DNA from: Sinorhizobium arboris LMG 14919
Lineage (GTDB): Bacteria; Pseudomonadota; Alphaproteobacteria; Rhizobiales; Rhizobiaceae
DNA length: 64,000 nucleotides
NCBI RefSeq assembly: GCF_000427465.1
Contig: NZ_KE386497.1
Location: 569,014 to 633,013, forward strand
Direction: 5' to 3'
Shown here: in pieces, positions 14,130-19,816 of the stretch
Layout of the letters: each line of letters opens with the position of its first letter
Numbering within the stretch: position 1 is the stretch's first letter
Translations under genes and position numbers: made by a program
Notes under the pieces: generated by a model
Told to the model about the DNA's origin: nothing
Databases searched by the model: none
Seen by the model: only the letters and a program-made list of their open reading frames with translations

Positions 14130-14257
14130 TTCCTCCTCCAGGCCTGTTGTGTCTTGGTGGTTTGAATATTGCGCTTTTATGCCTACCATTGATGGGTCGA
14201 AAATGCGAATTCCCGAACTTGTCCCGCGGTTTGGACTCGTGCTATTTTCACCCACTA

Positions 14258-15049
14258 ATGGTAGGTCAAAAGAACGAAAAGATAAACCAACTTCGTCGCC
14301 TGCTCCCCGAGGGGCTGGTGGTTGACACCGCTTGGCTGGAAAAACACGGCTACCGTCGGCAGTGGCGCGAAAAGTACGTGGCGCAGGGCTGGCTCGAAGG
14401 TGTCGTTCGTGGCGTCTATCAGCGACCGACAGGCAACGTTGATCAGGCGATAGCCTGGCAGCGCGTGATCATCTCGCTCCAGCGACTTCTGGACAAATCC
14501 GTGCACGTCGGCGGCCGCAGTGCCCTCGAGCTACAAGGCTTGACGCACTACCTCCGCTTTTCTGGCAAGCCAGAAATACACCTCTATGCCTATGGAAGTC
14601 TGCCTGGCTGGGTCCAGCGGATACCGACCGACGCTCAGTTCGTCGAACATAAGGCAGACAAGCTCTTCGATGCCGACGCACCTGGAAGGACGCGCATGGC
14701 ATGGGGACATTGGGGATGGGAGCTCGACGTCTCCGCGCCGGAGCGAGCATTTTGCGAGCTTCTTGACCTTCTCCCTTCCCAGGAGACCTTCCATCAAGCG
14801 GATGTTCTAATGGAGTCGGTTCGCATTCTAAGTCCGAAGCGGGTTCAGGCCGTGCTGGAAGCGTGCCGCAGCGTGAAGGTGAAGAGGCTGTTTCTCTGGT
14901 TCGCCGAGCGACACGCCCATCCATGGTTCGGCCGGCTCGATCTCAAACGTATCGACCTCGGTCGTGGTAAGCGCCAGATCGTGGTCGGCGGTCGGCTGGA
15001 CAGCAAGTATCAGATCACTGTGCCGGAGACACTCGATGCCGGCGTCTGA
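14258..15049 (+). CDS. abiEi: AbiEi-type antitoxin of a type IV toxin-antitoxin pair
   Basis: The product has 263 residues. An N-terminal winged-helix part (INQLRRLLPEGLVVDTAWLEKHGYRRQWREKYVAQGW, then GVYQRP) is followed by the larger C-terminal domain (HVGGRSALELQGLTHYLRF, APERAFCELLDLLPS, RLDLKRIDLG). This is the layout of AbiEi antitoxins. They bind their own promoter and counteract the nucleotidyltransferase toxin without directly binding it. The gene overlaps the toxin gene by 14 bases, implying coupled translation. The frame is intact. The start at 14258 is preferred because the frame upstream runs through the divergent promoter region. Confidence 0.88.
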   Translation: MVGQKNEKINQLRRLLPEGLVVDTAWLEKHGYRRQWREKYVAQGWLEGVVRGVYQRPTGNVDQAIAWQRVIISLQRLLDKSVHVGGRSALELQGLTHYLRFSGKPEIHLYAYGSLPGWVQRIPTDAQFVEHKADKLFDADAPGRTRMAWGHWGWELDVSAPERAFCELLDLLPSQETFHQADVLMESVRILSPKRVQAVLEACRSVKVKRLFLWFAERHAHPWFGRLDLKRIDLGRGKRQIVVGGRLDSKYQITVPETLDAGV

Positions 15050-15953
15050 AGCTTATCGCGCGCAAGTCAGCCTCCTCGTTCGAGTTCTGCCGCTCGTTGC
15101 AGAGGAGAATGTCTTTGCATTGAAGGGTGGCACGGCCATCAATCTTTTCGTTAGAGACCTTCCACGCCTGTCGGTCGATATCGATCTGACCTATCTGCCG
15201 GTCGAGGATCGCGCGACTTCTCTCGCCAACATTGACGCTGCCATACGACGGATTGCTGCTCGAATAGGGGAGAATGTACCGCGCAGCCGCACCCAGGTCG
15301 TGCCGCTGCACAGCGAAGGCGCTGCAACAAAGGTGCTGGTTACCTCCGACGGTGTGCAGATCAAGATCGAGGTGACACCTGTCATTCGTGGCTGCGTCTA
15401 CTCTCCCGAGACACGGGCAGTTTGCGACCGGGTCGAAGAGCTCTTCGGCTATGCCGAGGTGCCTGTTGTGTCCTTCCCGGACCTCTACGCCGGCAAGATC
15501 GTCGCCGCCTTGGATCGGCAGCACCCGCGAGATCTGTTCGATGTCAGATATCTGCTCGCGAATGAGGGTATATCCGATGAGCTACGGCGCGCCTTCATTG
15601 TATACATGCTGAGCCACAATAGGCCGATGGCGGAGGTTTTGGCGCCGACGCGCAAAGACCTGCGGCAGGAGTTCGAGGCTGGGTTTGCCGGAATGACGGA
15701 AGAGCCCGTGACCCTGGAGGCGTTGTACGATGCTCGTGAAGCTTTAATCGCCGAGGTCGTTGGCAAGATGCCTGCCGAGCACCGGCGCTTTCTTCTCTCC
15801 TTCAAGGCCGGCGAGCCAGAGTGGGACTTGCTAGGAGTGCCTGGAGCCGCGGACTTGCCGGCGGTGCGCTGGAAGGTCGACAACTTGGCCGAACTTTCGG
15901 AGGGCCGACGAGAAAAGCTGTTGTCGGATCTCAGGCGGGTGCTCGCGACATGA
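15036..15953 (+). CDS. abiEii: AbiEii-type nucleotidyltransferase toxin
   Basis: The product has 305 residues. The nucleotidyltransferase core is plain: GGTAINLF at 31-38 followed by SVDIDLTY with D48 and D50 as metal ligands. A third acidic strand (VQIKIEVTP) and the conserved FPDLYAGKIVAALDRQHPRDLFDV come later. AbiEii toxins use NTPs to modify RNA (some extend or block tRNA acceptor ends), causing reversible growth arrest that aborts phage infection or stabilises plasmids. It lies in a cluster with restriction-like genes, consistent with a defence patch. All key residues are present. Confidence 0.9.
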   Translation: MPASEAYRAQVSLLVRVLPLVAEENVFALKGGTAINLFVRDLPRLSVDIDLTYLPVEDRATSLANIDAAIRRIAARIGENVPRSRTQVVPLHSEGAATKVLVTSDGVQIKIEVTPVIRGCVYSPETRAVCDRVEELFGYAEVPVVSFPDLYAGKIVAALDRQHPRDLFDVRYLLANEGISDELRRAFIVYMLSHNRPMAEVLAPTRKDLRQEFEAGFAGMTEEPVTLEALYDAREALIAEVVGKMPAEHRRFLLSFKAGEPEWDLLGVPGAADLPAVRWKVDNLAELSEGRREKLLSDLRRVLAT

Positions 15954-16114: not shown

Positions 16115-17047
16115 ATGGTTCGCCTCTTCGTCGGCGTTACGGACAAGGCCTGGTTCGATCAGTTGAGCGCCTCTGTTCCTCATGACGAAGTCAATTTTTG
16201 GCAACCCAGCGGGACGACGCAGTTTCGCGCGCTTCAGCCCGGCGAACTATTCCTCTTCAAGCTGCATGCGCCAAACAACTTCATCGTTGGCGGCGGCATT
16301 TTCGGTCACGCGTCAATCGCGCCACTGTCTCTGGCCTGGGAAGCCTTTGGCCTTAAGAACGGCGTTTCCAGTCGCTCTGAAATGCGGGCGCGAATTGCGA
16401 GCTATCGCCGCGATCCGATTGCCCTGGACGATCGACAGGATCCCGTCATCGGTTGTCGGATACTGACCCAGCCGTTCTTTTGGCCGAAAGAACTCTGGCT
16501 GCCTATTCCAGCTAGCTGGTCGCCAAACATCGTGACCGGCAAGGGATTCAGCGCGGAGGAAGGGGATGGGCAATATCTATGGTCCGCAGTCACAGAGCGA
16601 TTGAACTCGGTTCCTGAGATTCGACATACAGAGCCGGTCATAGCTGAGCGCTTCGGCAAGCCGACGCTGATCAAGCCGAGATTAGGGCAGGGCGCGTTTC
16701 GCCTGACGATCACCGATAGCTATGAACGCCGTTGTGCTGTCTCGGGTGAAAAGACCCTGCCGATTTTGGATGCCGCCCACATCCGTGCTTTCGAGGCCGG
16801 TGGAGAGCACGCGGCTTCGAACGGTTTGCTCCTTCGCACTGACATCCACCGGCTTTTTGACCTGGGATACGTCACAGTCTCGCCGGATGGTCGGTTCGAG
16901 GTCAGTGGCCGTCTGAAAGCTGACTTCGATAACGGTCGACACTACTATGATCTTCAGGGAACGCCCATTCGCCCTCCCAAGAACCGACATGCTGCGCCAT
17001 CAGTCGACGCGTTGTCGTGGCATCGAGAGCATCGGTATCTGGGATGA
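16115..17047 (+). CDS. HNH endonuclease with a PUA/EVE-like N-terminal domain
   Basis: The product has 310 residues. The C-terminal HNH fold is clear: RCAVSG and then LDAAHIRAFEAGG (H222), SNGLLL (N236) and RTDIHRLFD (H245), as in many putative restriction endonucleases. The N-terminal 100 residues (LFVGVTDKAWFDQL, FRALQPGELFLFKLHAPNNFIVGGGIFG) look beta-rich and may be a modified-base reader of the PUA/EVE/SRA type; this is inference. A domain pair of that kind would make it a modification-dependent enzyme cutting phage DNA. GAGAGG precedes the ATG. It sits beside AbiE and a second broken endonuclease. Confidence 0.75.
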   Translation: MVRLFVGVTDKAWFDQLSASVPHDEVNFWQPSGTTQFRALQPGELFLFKLHAPNNFIVGGGIFGHASIAPLSLAWEAFGLKNGVSSRSEMRARIASYRRDPIALDDRQDPVIGCRILTQPFFWPKELWLPIPASWSPNIVTGKGFSAEEGDGQYLWSAVTERLNSVPEIRHTEPVIAERFGKPTLIKPRLGQGAFRLTITDSYERRCAVSGEKTLPILDAAHIRAFEAGGEHAASNGLLLRTDIHRLFDLGYVTVSPDGRFEVSGRLKADFDNGRHYYDLQGTPIRPPKNRHAAPSVDALSWHREHRYLG

Positions 17048-17469: not shown

Positions 17470-17691
17470 CTAGTGTGCCGTTCGACTTGCACAAGTGACT
17501 AGCTCCGCCGCGATCTCAGGCACAGGAATGGCATGCGGTTTGCCATTCTTCGTCGTCGACCAATCTGTGATGCGTTCCTTGGCATCCCATTGATCGAAAT
17601 GTAGGCGCGCGATCTCCTCGACGCGCTGTCCAGTCAGCATGAGAATTCTGACGGCGCGCGTGTAAGGCGGATGGACGGGCGTGTGGGGCAT
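17470..17691 (-). pseudogene. Tyrosine recombinase (integrase) fragment
   Basis: Minus-strand reading gives ILMLTGQRVEEIARLHFDQWD and TTKNGKPHAIPVPEIAAEL. This is the start of the catalytic domain of phage-type integrases, with the first catalytic Arg (in TGQRVEE) and the beta-hairpin Lys (in KNGK). The HxxR and Tyr parts are missing, and the frame ends in an unrelated tail. In-frame sequence just upstream (to about 17750) may be part of it. It marks the edge of a former mobile element. Confidence 0.7.
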
Positions 17692-17759: not shown

Positions 17760-17775
17760 TGGTACGGTGCTTGCT
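17760..17775 (+). promoter_or_regulatory. Candidate sigma-54 (-24/-12) promoter of the peptide-epimerase locus
   Basis: The site reads TGGTACGGTGCTTGCT. GG at 17761-17762 and GC at 17773-17774 are separated by exactly ten bases and the TTGC block is intact, so only one base of the TGGCAC half differs. Transcription would start near 17786, giving a 65-base leader before the precursor ATG. No TGT-N10-ACA NifA site was seen in the 170 bases upstream. Confidence 0.55.
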
Positions 17776-17850
17776 TGTTCACGGCTTCATCCGATCGCTT
17801 GCGAGAGCGAGACGATAGTTTGACACCATTGAGCAAAGAGGAAATTTGCT

Positions 17851-18231
17851 ATGCCGCGAACTGACGTAGAGCGATTCGTCAACGATTTAGGAAAAGAAGG
17901 CAGTCTGCTTGAAGACCTCAAACCAAGGGCTACAGGCCTTGCATCGATTGTAGCGATAGGAAAGAGCCTGAACTACAACATCACGCTCGACGAGGTTCAA
18001 AGTTACATCCGTTTGAACAGCCGACAGAAGTCACCTAGCAAGAAGCTCGACGCGATCGCGGGTCGCAAGCGTGGTTCGAGCCGTGCGGCATTGACCAGCC
18101 TTGTACAGACTAATGCCTTGGCCAATAACGCTACCGATGTACCCACGAGCCTTGTGCAAGTCGCGGAAAAGGGCACTAGCTTCGCCGCGGTCGTCCTACT
18201 TGTTGTAGTTGTTGTTGTGGTCGCGACCTGA
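17851..18231 (+). CDS. Nif11-leader RiPP precursor peptide with poly-valine core
   Basis: The product has 126 residues. Residues about 2-56 (with [19 protein letters not shown] and [20 protein letters not shown]) match the Nif11-type leader used by ribosomal peptide pathways. Then comes a basic linker ([16 protein letters not shown]) and two TSLVQ units, at 82-86 and 99-103. The end is [16 protein letters not shown]. Nine of the last 13 residues before the final Ala-Thr and including them are Val, encoded by GTC, GTT, GTA and GTG, so the run is not a pure DNA repeat. The AGAGGAAAT before the ATG is a good ribosome site. The epimerase gene follows 82 bases later. I infer that the tail is converted in part to D-residues. 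No protease or exporter gene is nearby. Confidence 0.82.
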
Positions 18232-18313
18232 CGGAATTTCCTAGCTCTGACCGCATTGGCCGGGACGGTCCGGTGCGAAGAGAACATGAAAGCAAACCTC
18301 GTCGGATGAGATC

Positions 18314-19816
18314 ATGCCATCAGGCCTACAAGATGCGGCTACAAGGACTCACCTGCACTCTCAGGACGAACATTGGCGACAGATCTTTGAGCGGCGCACG
18401 CCGGAGCAACGGCGCACGTTGTCACACGTAAAGCGCTTCATGGAGCGGCTGGCTGGTGACATGAAGTTCCGTACGGCTCTTTCAGAGAACGTCGACGCCC
18501 CTCGGGCGGTAACAGAGCGCTACGGCATCGAAGTTGATCCAGCGGAGATGCTACCGCTCTGGCGTGGTGACTACCTGAAATACCGCTTCACGCCGGAGTC
18601 GGCCCCGTGGCCGCTGGCTATGATGTGGGACGATTATATGCGCGCAGTGTTGCGCCATCGCGACCTCCTGCGAGACCAAGGCGAAATGTCAATCATCAGC
18701 CCTCGCTTTCATGCCTGGCGCGAACGCCAAATCCGGCGCTGTAACGACGAATTGGGCGGATCGGCGCCGTCGATCACGCACCCCATCCTCGCTTTCGAGC
18801 TGAGCGAAGGCTGCAGCGTCGGTTGCTGGTTCTGTGGCCTCTCGGCCGATCGCTTCAAAGGCTATTATGACTACAGCAAAGAGCATGCAGAGCTTTGGCG
18901 GGGCGTGGTTGGTGTCGCGAGCGAGATGTTTGGTTCGGCAGCCCGTACTGGCTTCTGCTACTGGGCCACAGAGCCTATGGACAACCCACACTACGACCAC
19001 TTTCTGTTCGACTATTATCAGATCACGGGCGCATTGCCGCAAACAACGACGGCCGCACCGCTCAAGGATAAGGCACTCACCAGGCGCGTGCTCGGGCTCT
19101 TCGACCTTTATGGCACTACGACGAATCGTTTCTCAGTGCTGAGCACGGAACATCTCAATCAGATTCACATGGCGTTTTCGCCTGAGGAGCTGATGGGGGT
19201 CGAACTGATCCTGCAGGGCAAAGAGGGGCCGACGGCAAAGGCTTTCACCGGGCGCGCGCGCGGGCGGAAGAAGAAGCTCGGGGTCGCTTTGCCGGAAGGC
19301 TCTCCGTCGACGATCGCCTGTGTTTCCGGCTTCCTCGTAAATATACCGAAGGGACGTATTCAACTGGTGACGCCGGTACCGGGTAGCGAACGCTGGCCTC
19401 TCGGGTACCGCATCGTGGGTCAATGTTTCTTCAGGACGCGTGACGAGTTCCGTGAAGGACTACAGAGCATGATCGATCAGCACATGCTCGAGAGCCCCGC
19501 CCCCGACCTGCCGCTCCGCTTCCGCAGGGACCTGCAATACAAAGCAGGGAACCGGTACTTCGATCTCCGCTCACGCAGCAGGGAACACCGAGTGCTCGAC
19601 GACGTCGCTCCGATTTCCATTGGCGATCTGATCGCATGTGGTAACTGCACAGCCTCCGAGCTGGTTATGCGGGTCACGACGGACGGAACCAGCGTGCTCG
19701 CAGTCGCCGACCTCCTCGATCAGTTATACGCGGCCGGGGTGATCGAAGAGGACCTCGACGACCGCTTTGCTTGGCAGACAAGCAACGAGATGACGGGCAG
19801 CATCGAATGGGTCTGA
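18314..19816 (+). CDS. Radical SAM RiPP amino-acid epimerase (PoyD-like)
   Basis: The product has 500 residues. The radical SAM cluster motif CxxxCxxC lies in LSEGCSVGCWFCGLSA (C167, C171, C174). GFCYWATEP and CVSGFLVNIPKGRIQLVTP are further core strands, and a late CGNC (C442, C445) could supply the H-atom donor or a cluster ligand. The long N-terminal part is as in the PoyD-related peptide maturation epimerases, and its segment VKRFMERLAGDMKFRTALSE resembles a Nif11 domain. The enzyme would use 5'-deoxyadenosyl radical chemistry to invert L to D residues in the Nif11 precursor encoded just upstream. It is probably co-transcribed from the sigma-54-like promoter. The family call is firm; the substrate link rests on adjacency. 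Confidence 0.85.
   Translation: MPSGLQDAATRTHLHSQDEHWRQIFERRTPEQRRTLSHVKRFMERLAGDMKFRTALSENVDAPRAVTERYGIEVDPAEMLPLWRGDYLKYRFTPESAPWPLAMMWDDYMRAVLRHRDLLRDQGEMSIISPRFHAWRERQIRRCNDELGGSAPSITHPILAFELSEGCSVGCWFCGLSADRFKGYYDYSKEHAELWRGVVGVASEMFGSAARTGFCYWATEPMDNPHYDHFLFDYYQITGALPQTTTAAPLKDKALTRRVLGLFDLYGTTTNRFSVLSTEHLNQIHMAFSPEELMGVELILQGKEGPTAKAFTGRARGRKKKLGVALPEGSPSTIACVSGFLVNIPKGRIQLVTPVPGSERWPLGYRIVGQCFFRTRDEFREGLQSMIDQHMLESPAPDLPLRFRRDLQYKAGNRYFDLRSRSREHRVLDDVAPISIGDLIACGNCTASELVMRVTTDGTSVLAVADLLDQLYAAGVIEEDLDDRFAWQTSNEMTGSIEWV

Follow-up and report, generated by a model that had tools for sequence, protein, structure and literature searches.

What would a peptide epimerase make of a small protein that ends in a run of valines? 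The question is raised by two adjacent genes in a 64-kb window (the whole stretch of DNA analysed, 64,000 nucleotides) from Sinorhizobium arboris LMG 14919, one encoding a 126-residue precursor and the other a 500-residue radical SAM protein. We propose that they form a two-gene unit for a ribosomally synthesised and post-translationally modified peptide (RiPP), switched by RpoN (sigma-54), in which the epimerase would invert residues of the precursor tail and the resulting D/L tail would insert into a membrane; we put the probability of this reading at about 65%. The features concerned are listed below in window coordinates, with the confidence of structure prediction given as pLDDT (predicted local distance difference test).

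17760–17775 (+): sigma-54 (RpoN) −24/−12 element, TGGTACG-GTGC-TTGCT, a perfect consensus match that begins 91 nt before the precursor ATG
17851–18231 (+): putative RiPP precursor, Nif11-like, 126 residues
17851–18021 (+): leader, residues 1–57, predicted helical (blocks of pLDDT 62–80)
18022–18180 (+): variable linker, residues 58–110 (pLDDT below 50 for residues 69–112)
18181–18228 (+): putative core or tail, residues 111–126
18314–19816 (+): predicted PoyD-type radical SAM peptide epimerase, 500 residues
18812–18835 (+): CxxxCxxC cluster motif, C167-xxx-C171-xx-C174
19319–19321 (+): Cys336
19505–19753 (+): predicted RRE (leader-binding) domain, about residues 398–480

A precursor gene and an epimerase gene inherited as one unit

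A sequence-only reading of this DNA had described a 126-residue precursor with a Nif11-type leader, followed 82 bases later by a PoyD-like radical SAM protein with a CxxxCxxC motif. Both open reading frames were confirmed, the first lying upstream of the second on the same strand with a gap of 82 bp. The 500-residue protein matched TIGR04517 (radical SAM family RiPP maturation amino acid epimerase) over all profile positions (1–446 of 446) with 551.4 bits against a cut-off of 325, and by its sequence it is clearly classed as a PoyD-family peptide epimerase. Each cysteine of the cluster motif was kept in 117 of 118 aligned epimerases, as was Cys215, and Cys336 was kept in all 118; the latter is likely to be the counterpart of Cys372, the hydrogen-atom donor of PoyD, an equivalence drawn from an alignment that does not include PoyD itself. 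The C-terminal RRE of PoyD-type epimerases was found as a predicted fold. A structure model of the epimerase, built from 40 sequences, had as its first Foldseek match EpeE, another peptide epimerase, at a weak level (E = 6e-3, TM score about 0.25), and a sequence search against solved structures gave one meaningless match.

On the first 48 residues of the precursor the Nif11 profile PF07862 scored 21.3 bits (threshold 23.8), and TIGR03798 scored 14.1 bits on the precursor (cut-off 32.3), so the window sequence itself lies below both cut-offs, but PF07862 is precomputed on 24 of the 46 proteins among the homology matches listed, one of which is the query. Nif11 was the sole leader family that matched the precursor in the profile searches, in which a nitrile-hydratase-like leader was not matched; the peptide would thus work like a proteusin without being filed as one. 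A double-glycine cleavage site before the core is a feature of Nif11 leader peptides; it is absent from the window precursor, which has AGRK at that point. The AlphaFold model of the leader is of moderate confidence.

The two genes are one inherited unit. A Nif11-type precursor lay upstream of the epimerase in all 27 loci examined, which disposes of the idea, named by the sequence-only reading as one that would undo it, that the epimerase always stands with another substrate gene; the precursor of the Nostoc outgroup is a weak match (E = 3.5e-4), 1.6 kb from the epimerase. Among 33 genomes of the genus, 14 had an epimerase over the cut-off and all 14 had the precursor. Two others (G586 and G682) had a precursor next to a contig break that would truncate the epimerase, and the remaining 17 had no precursor match and no full-length epimerase, with short epimerase-like matches only in G688 and G698. 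This co-occurrence gave a Fisher p of 1.5e-7 with the two contig-end genomes counted as discordant and without correction for descent. The loci are related (L002 is nearly the same as the window, and L018 is the same as L036), so that the counts are not independent. Epimerase matches were found in 60 plasmid records (28 Sinorhizobium, 24 Rhizobium, 5 Mesorhizobium, 1 Aminobacter and 2 cyanobacteria) and precursor matches in 46. Sampling across the order gave an epimerase in the S. arboris genome and a split copy in G035, an 8-Mb genome, plus two weak matches. In G035 (L012/L015/L016, C1 ~7606700–7608050) the epimerase occupies three adjoining frame segments and reads as broken or as carrying sequencing errors, with a precursor ending AVVVVVIVAVVAEV open upstream of it.

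A tree of 44 epimerases (27 loci plus 17 of 120 listed proteins) contained a clade of 21 rows, with support of 100/95 and with Bradyrhizobium, Sinorhizobium and Mesorhizobium members, which we call class B and to which the window epimerase belongs; 11 other rhizobial loci make up class A. A C-methyltransferase relative was present in 9 of the 11 class A loci (not in L038 or L042) and in none of the eight class B loci longer than 13 kb. Seven loci, at only 3–4.4 kb, are too short to show a methyltransferase that extends past their end, and its absence from class B rests on those eight loci together with the count of the B12 radical SAM methyltransferase profile in the genus (TIGR03975 over cut-off in only 2 of 33 genomes). 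Three class A loci carry a GNAT gene (L010, L037 and L046), and the Mesorhizobium locus L037 also has an NHLP secretion protein and an NHLP exporter in its cluster. The 64-kb window contained no relative of the L008 methyltransferase, none of the L037 GNAT and NHLP genes, and no further maturases beside the epimerase of the kind found in polytheonamide-type clusters. A double glycine at the boundary of leader and core was seen in 5 of 11 class A loci (L010, L037, L038, L045 and L046) and at the same point in 1 of 15 class B loci (L006), being shifted by three residues in L018/L036; 19 precursors were counted as having the pair of glycines, which in P0009 and P0010 sits elsewhere. Class A precursors end in tails like AEAVVVVAAVLI; the tails of class B are an unbroken Val/Ile/Leu/Ala run with few exceptions, such as the Gln and His in NGR234. 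Since the relatives carry longer clusters, with a C-methyltransferase and once an NHLP exporter, the class of the window appears to be a reduced version of a polytheonamide-like pathway, supposing that the change went in that direction.

Promoter, expression and nitrogen fixation

The pattern TGGYACGN4TTGCW is the sigma-54 −24/−12 consensus, and it matched once in the window, where 0.02 matches were expected. The sequence-only reading had started its entry at position 17760, the first base of this element, without mentioning it. Most relatives have a similar site at −71 to −168. A looser sigma-54 pattern gave 31 matches in 28 loci (405 kb, or 809 kb counting both strands), 25 of which, spread over 21 of the loci, fell no more than 350 nt upstream of a precursor. 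Two of the matches are in the window, at −91 and −322; seven loci had none, with near matches in L024, L042 and L012. The random null of the first upstream-site scan includes the true site, so the strict-pattern count in the window and the 28-locus counts are the better controls. Perfect NifA sites (TGT-N10-ACA) were found twice each in L026, L028 and L029 and once each in L009, L012, L037, L045 and L046, and the sites in the first three make NifA control of the pair likely, although the window, considered below, differs from them. FNR-type boxes lie upstream in L008 and L044.

The association with nitrogen fixation can also be followed through gene content. The symbiotic host supposed by the sequence-only reading is borne out by nifD in the S. 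arboris genome, where it shares a 799,691-bp contig with the pair at a distance of about 480 kb. On pNGR234a the pair comes after nifS, with nifH about 8 kb away, and on one Rhizobium plasmid it lies 1.8 kb from nifHDK; close nif neighbours were present in only 3 of 22 loci searched (L007, L038 and L047), so such closeness is not general. Among 297 genomes of the family the epimerase exceeded the cut-off in four, all of which belong to the 18 genomes where nifD exceeds its own cut-off (p = 1e-5; 1.6e-4 if the S. arboris genome is left out); a fifth, G397, with a weak sub-cut-off match, was left out of the count. Within the genus all 14 epimerase-positive genomes are among the 30 of 33 that are nifD-positive, which is not telling alone.

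Published data on relatives point in the same direction. In Bradyrhizobium DOA9, which has a class B epimerase (P0069), a plasmid nif11 gene has a sigma-54 site, TGGCACGCTCCTTGC, at −76, and its expression is reduced in rpoN mutants (PMC13207237). MCHK_12735 appears in the bacteroid proteome of M. huakuii, at 0.50-fold in a hypE mutant (PMC10454058), and is by locus tag the L010 precursor, with a mass of 12.54 kDa in both; pRL100099 appears in R. leguminosarum bacteroids, at 1.23-fold in a gmcA mutant (PMC7105596), and equals the L008 precursor in mass and pI (14.45 kDa and 8.86). Both are class A precursors, and for class B no bacteroid expression was seen in this material. In nodules of an M. 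huakuii abiEi mutant a Nif11 gene was down by log2 4.35 and the next-numbered 'amino acid epimerase' gene by 4.46, together with nif genes (PMC8436566). In the available part of the text on the NGR234 bacteroid transcriptome terms for the pair were absent, and neither 'nif11' nor 'radical SAM' occurs in the main text of a NifA-regulon reconstruction. Nif11 proteins have been counted as a nif gene family of rhizobia (PMC7709874), and some of them may be RiPP precursors of the kind described here.

The tail and what may be made of it

The tail carries seven valines in a row. Of the 392 open reading frames of at least 60 residues in the window only this one has such a run, and shuffling the precursor residues 200,000 times produced it in 3 cases. 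All four GTN codons occur among the nine valines of the 16-residue tail, as the sequence-only reading had seen; its conclusion that selection acts at the protein level was rejected as an argument, because the ratio of non-synonymous to synonymous polymorphism (pN/pS) is 0.870 for the tail as against 0.455 for the leader and 0.746 for the linker (9 representatives of 14 class B loci, near-copies dropped, 36 pairs), and because the codons are largely shared position by position. The kind of change is a better argument for constraint. Second-base changes of GTN lead to Ala, Gly or Asp/Glu; among the substitutions in the tail Ala was common, Glu was rare, and Gly and Asp never occurred. The 44 homologues reduced to 26 distinct 14-residue tails, made up of 56% Val, 21% Ala, 8% Ile and 6% Leu (91% for these four), and Gly, Asp, Lys and Arg were in none of them. 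Val121 and Val124 were invariant in the rows aligned. In L026, L028 and L029 about 35 linker residues are naturally missing while leader and tail are kept, which suggests that the tail is what counts. The sequence-only reading had staked itself on conservation of leader and tail among homologues, and both are conserved, the tail as a hydrophobic type.

In the reading that we favour, the pair would be a minimal RiPP unit of rhizobia that symbiosis plasmids often carry and that RpoN, most probably together with NifA, turns on during nitrogen fixation. The Nif11-like leader would be held by the RRE domain of the epimerase, which would abstract C-alpha hydrogens and invert Val, Ile, Leu and Ala residues of the C-terminal tail, plausibly every second one. 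PoyD itself works from the C to the N terminus on every second residue (PMC8326336), and alternating chirality gives polytheonamide B its channel-forming beta-spiral (PMC8183687); if the PoyD pattern holds, the tail would be of alternating chirality and of about the length of gramicidin A. The product would be a strongly hydrophobic tail of some 16 D and L residues that goes into a membrane, most likely that of the bacteroid itself. It probably stays with its producer, since the S. arboris genome has no active-looking C39 protease-exporter, the window precursor has no double-glycine site, and no C39 match was found in NGR234. The points that we infer are the epimerisation with its pattern, where the core begins, insertion into a membrane and the part played in symbiosis.

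Several observations weigh against this proposal or against parts of it. The tail pN/pS of 0.87 indicates no strong purifying selection on exact residues, and the epimerase could act on some other part of the precursor. No sigma-54 match was found in L008, L040, L041 and L044, all of the R. leguminosarum group; the window has no perfect NifA site within 300 nt upstream, and among the class B loci scanned such sites occur only in L026, L028 and L029 (L012, which is unclassed, also has one). The DOA9 nif11 gene may not adjoin the epimerase of that strain. The abiEi mutant had lost 97% of fixation (PMC8436566), so the drop in its transcripts may be indirect, and the fall in the abiEi and hypE mutants alike may be an effect of poor nodules. 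Full epimerases are missing from 16 of the 30 nifD-positive genomes of the genus, so the pair is not essential for fixation. Some relatives may export the product, since in G679 and G685 strong C39-type ABC transporters lie about 20 kb away from the two genes.

The alternative that survives best, though we consider it rather doubtful, is that the modified core takes in all of the roughly 50 residues that follow the former double-glycine site, with the valine run only its membrane-spanning end. In the five class A loci that keep the double glycine it is followed by a stretch rich in Val, Ala and Thr, polytheonamide is of similar size at 49 residues (PMC8183687), and this core may apply in relatives with ends ...SVATSTKVVQTAAVATTAVEAAEVATTVAEAAEAVVVVAAVLI. 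In class B, however, change is faster in the linker than in the leader (pN/pS 0.746 against 0.455), and most of the linker is missing in the three short-linker loci. A bolder form of the proposal, which we hold to be unlikely, would make the product an uncleaved, protein-tethered ribosomal counterpart of gramicidin in bacteroids: a Nif11 domain with an alternating D/L poly-valine tail, folded as a beta-helix within the membrane of the bacteroid or symbiosome and adjusting that membrane's permeability to ions or protons during nitrogen fixation.

Quite unlikely, in our view, is that the tail is an ordinary all-L transmembrane helix anchoring the Nif11 domain, and that a few residues of the linker, or a different peptide, are the substrate of the epimerase. 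Lung surfactant protein C has a poly-valine helix of this sort, and AlphaFold draws residues 110–125 of the precursor as a helix, with low confidence. Against this stand the tight linkage of the two genes, the loss of most of the linker in three loci and the finding of no second precursor of the Nif11-like family in the S. arboris genome; Val and Ile epimerisation, moreover, is reported for PlpA-type cores (PMC8326336).

We consider a bacteriocin secreted against competing bacteria very unlikely. The sequence-only reading had stated that no protease or exporter gene is visible and that maturation must use genes elsewhere. The absence of such genes is true at the locus, but among relatives the L037 cluster has its NHLP exporter, strong C39-type ABC transporters (above 100 bits) were found in 5 of 14 epimerase-positive against 2 of 19 other genus genomes (p = 0.09), and two of these lie about 20 kb from the pair in short-linker genomes (L060, G685:C3:78228–80330; L062, G679:C55:40531–42633). 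On the other side, there was no C39 match in NGR234 (G683) nor in the epimerase-positive genomes G684, G687, G695 and G439, no NHLP exporter over the cut-off in the 33 genus genomes (24 candidates scored in each), and a promoter of nitrogen-fixation type would be an odd switch for a weapon. C39 peptidases have the motif D-C-G; the sole C39 match of the S. arboris genome is weak (25.9 bits) and reads D-S-G, so that the catalytic cysteine of this ABC protein has apparently been replaced. The best NHLP-ABC match there was rejected as a dedicated exporter, as it scored 445 bits against a cut-off of 853 and has a weak C39 domain with D-S-G.

That the locus is a decaying relic of a larger cluster, without present function, is highly improbable: it lacks a methyltransferase, GNAT and exporter, and the fragment-length epimerase matches in G688 and G698 and the copy split over three frames in G035 would fit decay, but the epimerases of the 14 full-copy genus genomes and their precursors have no internal stops, and the cluster cysteines and the promoter are kept across genera.

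Known systems, candidate partners and neighbouring genes

Gramicidin A is a non-ribosomal, hydrophobic, Val-containing peptide of about 15 residues with alternating L and D residues, capped ends and a Trp-rich half. The tail in the window shares its length, hydrophobicity and valines, and would share the alternation only if every second residue were inverted; it differs from gramicidin A in the latter's non-ribosomal origin, capped ends and Trp-rich half. The closest likeness in chemistry is to polytheonamide PoyA/PoyD and the cyanobacterial proteusin enzymes PlpD, OspD and AvpD, with which the window shares an epimerase with CxxxCxxC, a further cysteine and a C-terminal RRE, and a hydrophobic core. 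It departs from them in that its leader is Nif11-like where theirs is of the nitrile-hydratase type, in the absence of any other recognised modifying enzyme at the locus, in a tail of about 16 residues made almost only of Val, Ile, Leu and Ala, and in a promoter of nitrogen-fixation type. The epipeptide enzyme EpeE of Bacillus subtilis likewise epimerises Val and Ile by radical SAM chemistry to a membrane-active product, both of which would be so in the window on our proposal, whereas EpeE carries a pair of [4Fe-4S] clusters and is not significantly homologous to proteusin epimerases (PMC8326336), and its leader and export are different. Prochlorosins and other Nif11-leader RiPPs have the leader type in common but carry lanthipeptide chemistry (PMC10783134). 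Nearer relatives are L008 (R. johnstonii 3841), L009, L010 and L037, with homologous precursors and epimerases that are 67–76% identical in these four; they differ in an extra B12 radical SAM C-methyltransferase, in GNAT (L010 and L037, as also in L046) and in the NHLP exporter of L037.

The pair belongs with the PoyD-type epimerised RiPPs and departs from them in the leader type, the reduction to two genes, the Val/Ile/Leu/Ala tail and the promoter of nitrogen-fixation type; no description of the precursor and epimerase as a system was found among the matches listed from the open-licence PubMed Central (PMC) literature. If the proposal is true, a D-amino-acid peptide belongs to the nitrogen-fixation programme of at least four genera (Sinorhizobium, Rhizobium, Mesorhizobium and Bradyrhizobium), the genes responsible sit unnamed on the symbiosis plasmid pNGR234a, and nodule physiology gains a testable new factor. 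A precursor and an epimerase with a nearly pure Val/Ile/Leu/Ala tail also offer a very simple model for the choice of residues by such enzymes.

Should the leader be cleaved, the best protease candidate in the S. arboris genome is a pair of M16 (pitrilysin) genes on the same contig, by a weak link. Of the 14 epimerase-positive genomes in the genus 13 had the M16 pair, as did 9 of the other 19 (p = 0.007; within the nifD-positive genomes p = 0.03; uncorrected for descent), and it lies on the nif-bearing replicon in NGR234 (L007:21349–24005) and in S. arboris (L070:3076–5732). A sigma-54-like site stands 284 nt upstream of it in NGR234 and, with one mismatch, in S. arboris, where there is none without mismatch. 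A B12 radical SAM methyltransferase of the S. arboris genome (G000:C5:448424–450223) was rejected as a partner, being about 137 kb from the pair, with a SPASM-type radical SAM protein, a clostripain and a patatin as neighbours and no Nif11-like precursor in the 19 kb taken around it, and exceeding the cut-off in only 2 of 33 genus genomes. The segment L068:740–11278 (C5 of the same genome, about 137 kb away) holds a B12 radical SAM protein (TIGR03975, 612 bits), a SPASM radical SAM protein with a weak match to the viperin model, a clostripain, a patatin-like phospholipase and a metallo-beta-lactamase-fold protein, and is a possible second peptide-maturation cluster. On the S. meliloti plasmid pHRB800 (L009:7656–9933) four tandem precursors, one of them truncated, precede a single epimerase and methyltransferase, with a sigma-54 site within 300 nt for the first precursor only.

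In the window, an AbiEi/AbiEii toxin–antitoxin pair (14147–15953), of the type whose abiEi mutation in M. huakuii goes with lower Nif11 and epimerase transcripts in nodules (PMC8436566), lies about 2 kb upstream of the precursor and is adjoined by an HNH endonuclease-like gene (16115–17047), the two together resembling a small defence or island segment. A phage-type integrase fragment on the minus strand (17470–17691), with a PF00589 score of 27.1 bits that is exactly at the cut-off, stands just upstream of the promoter and hints that the pair arrived or moved by recombination.

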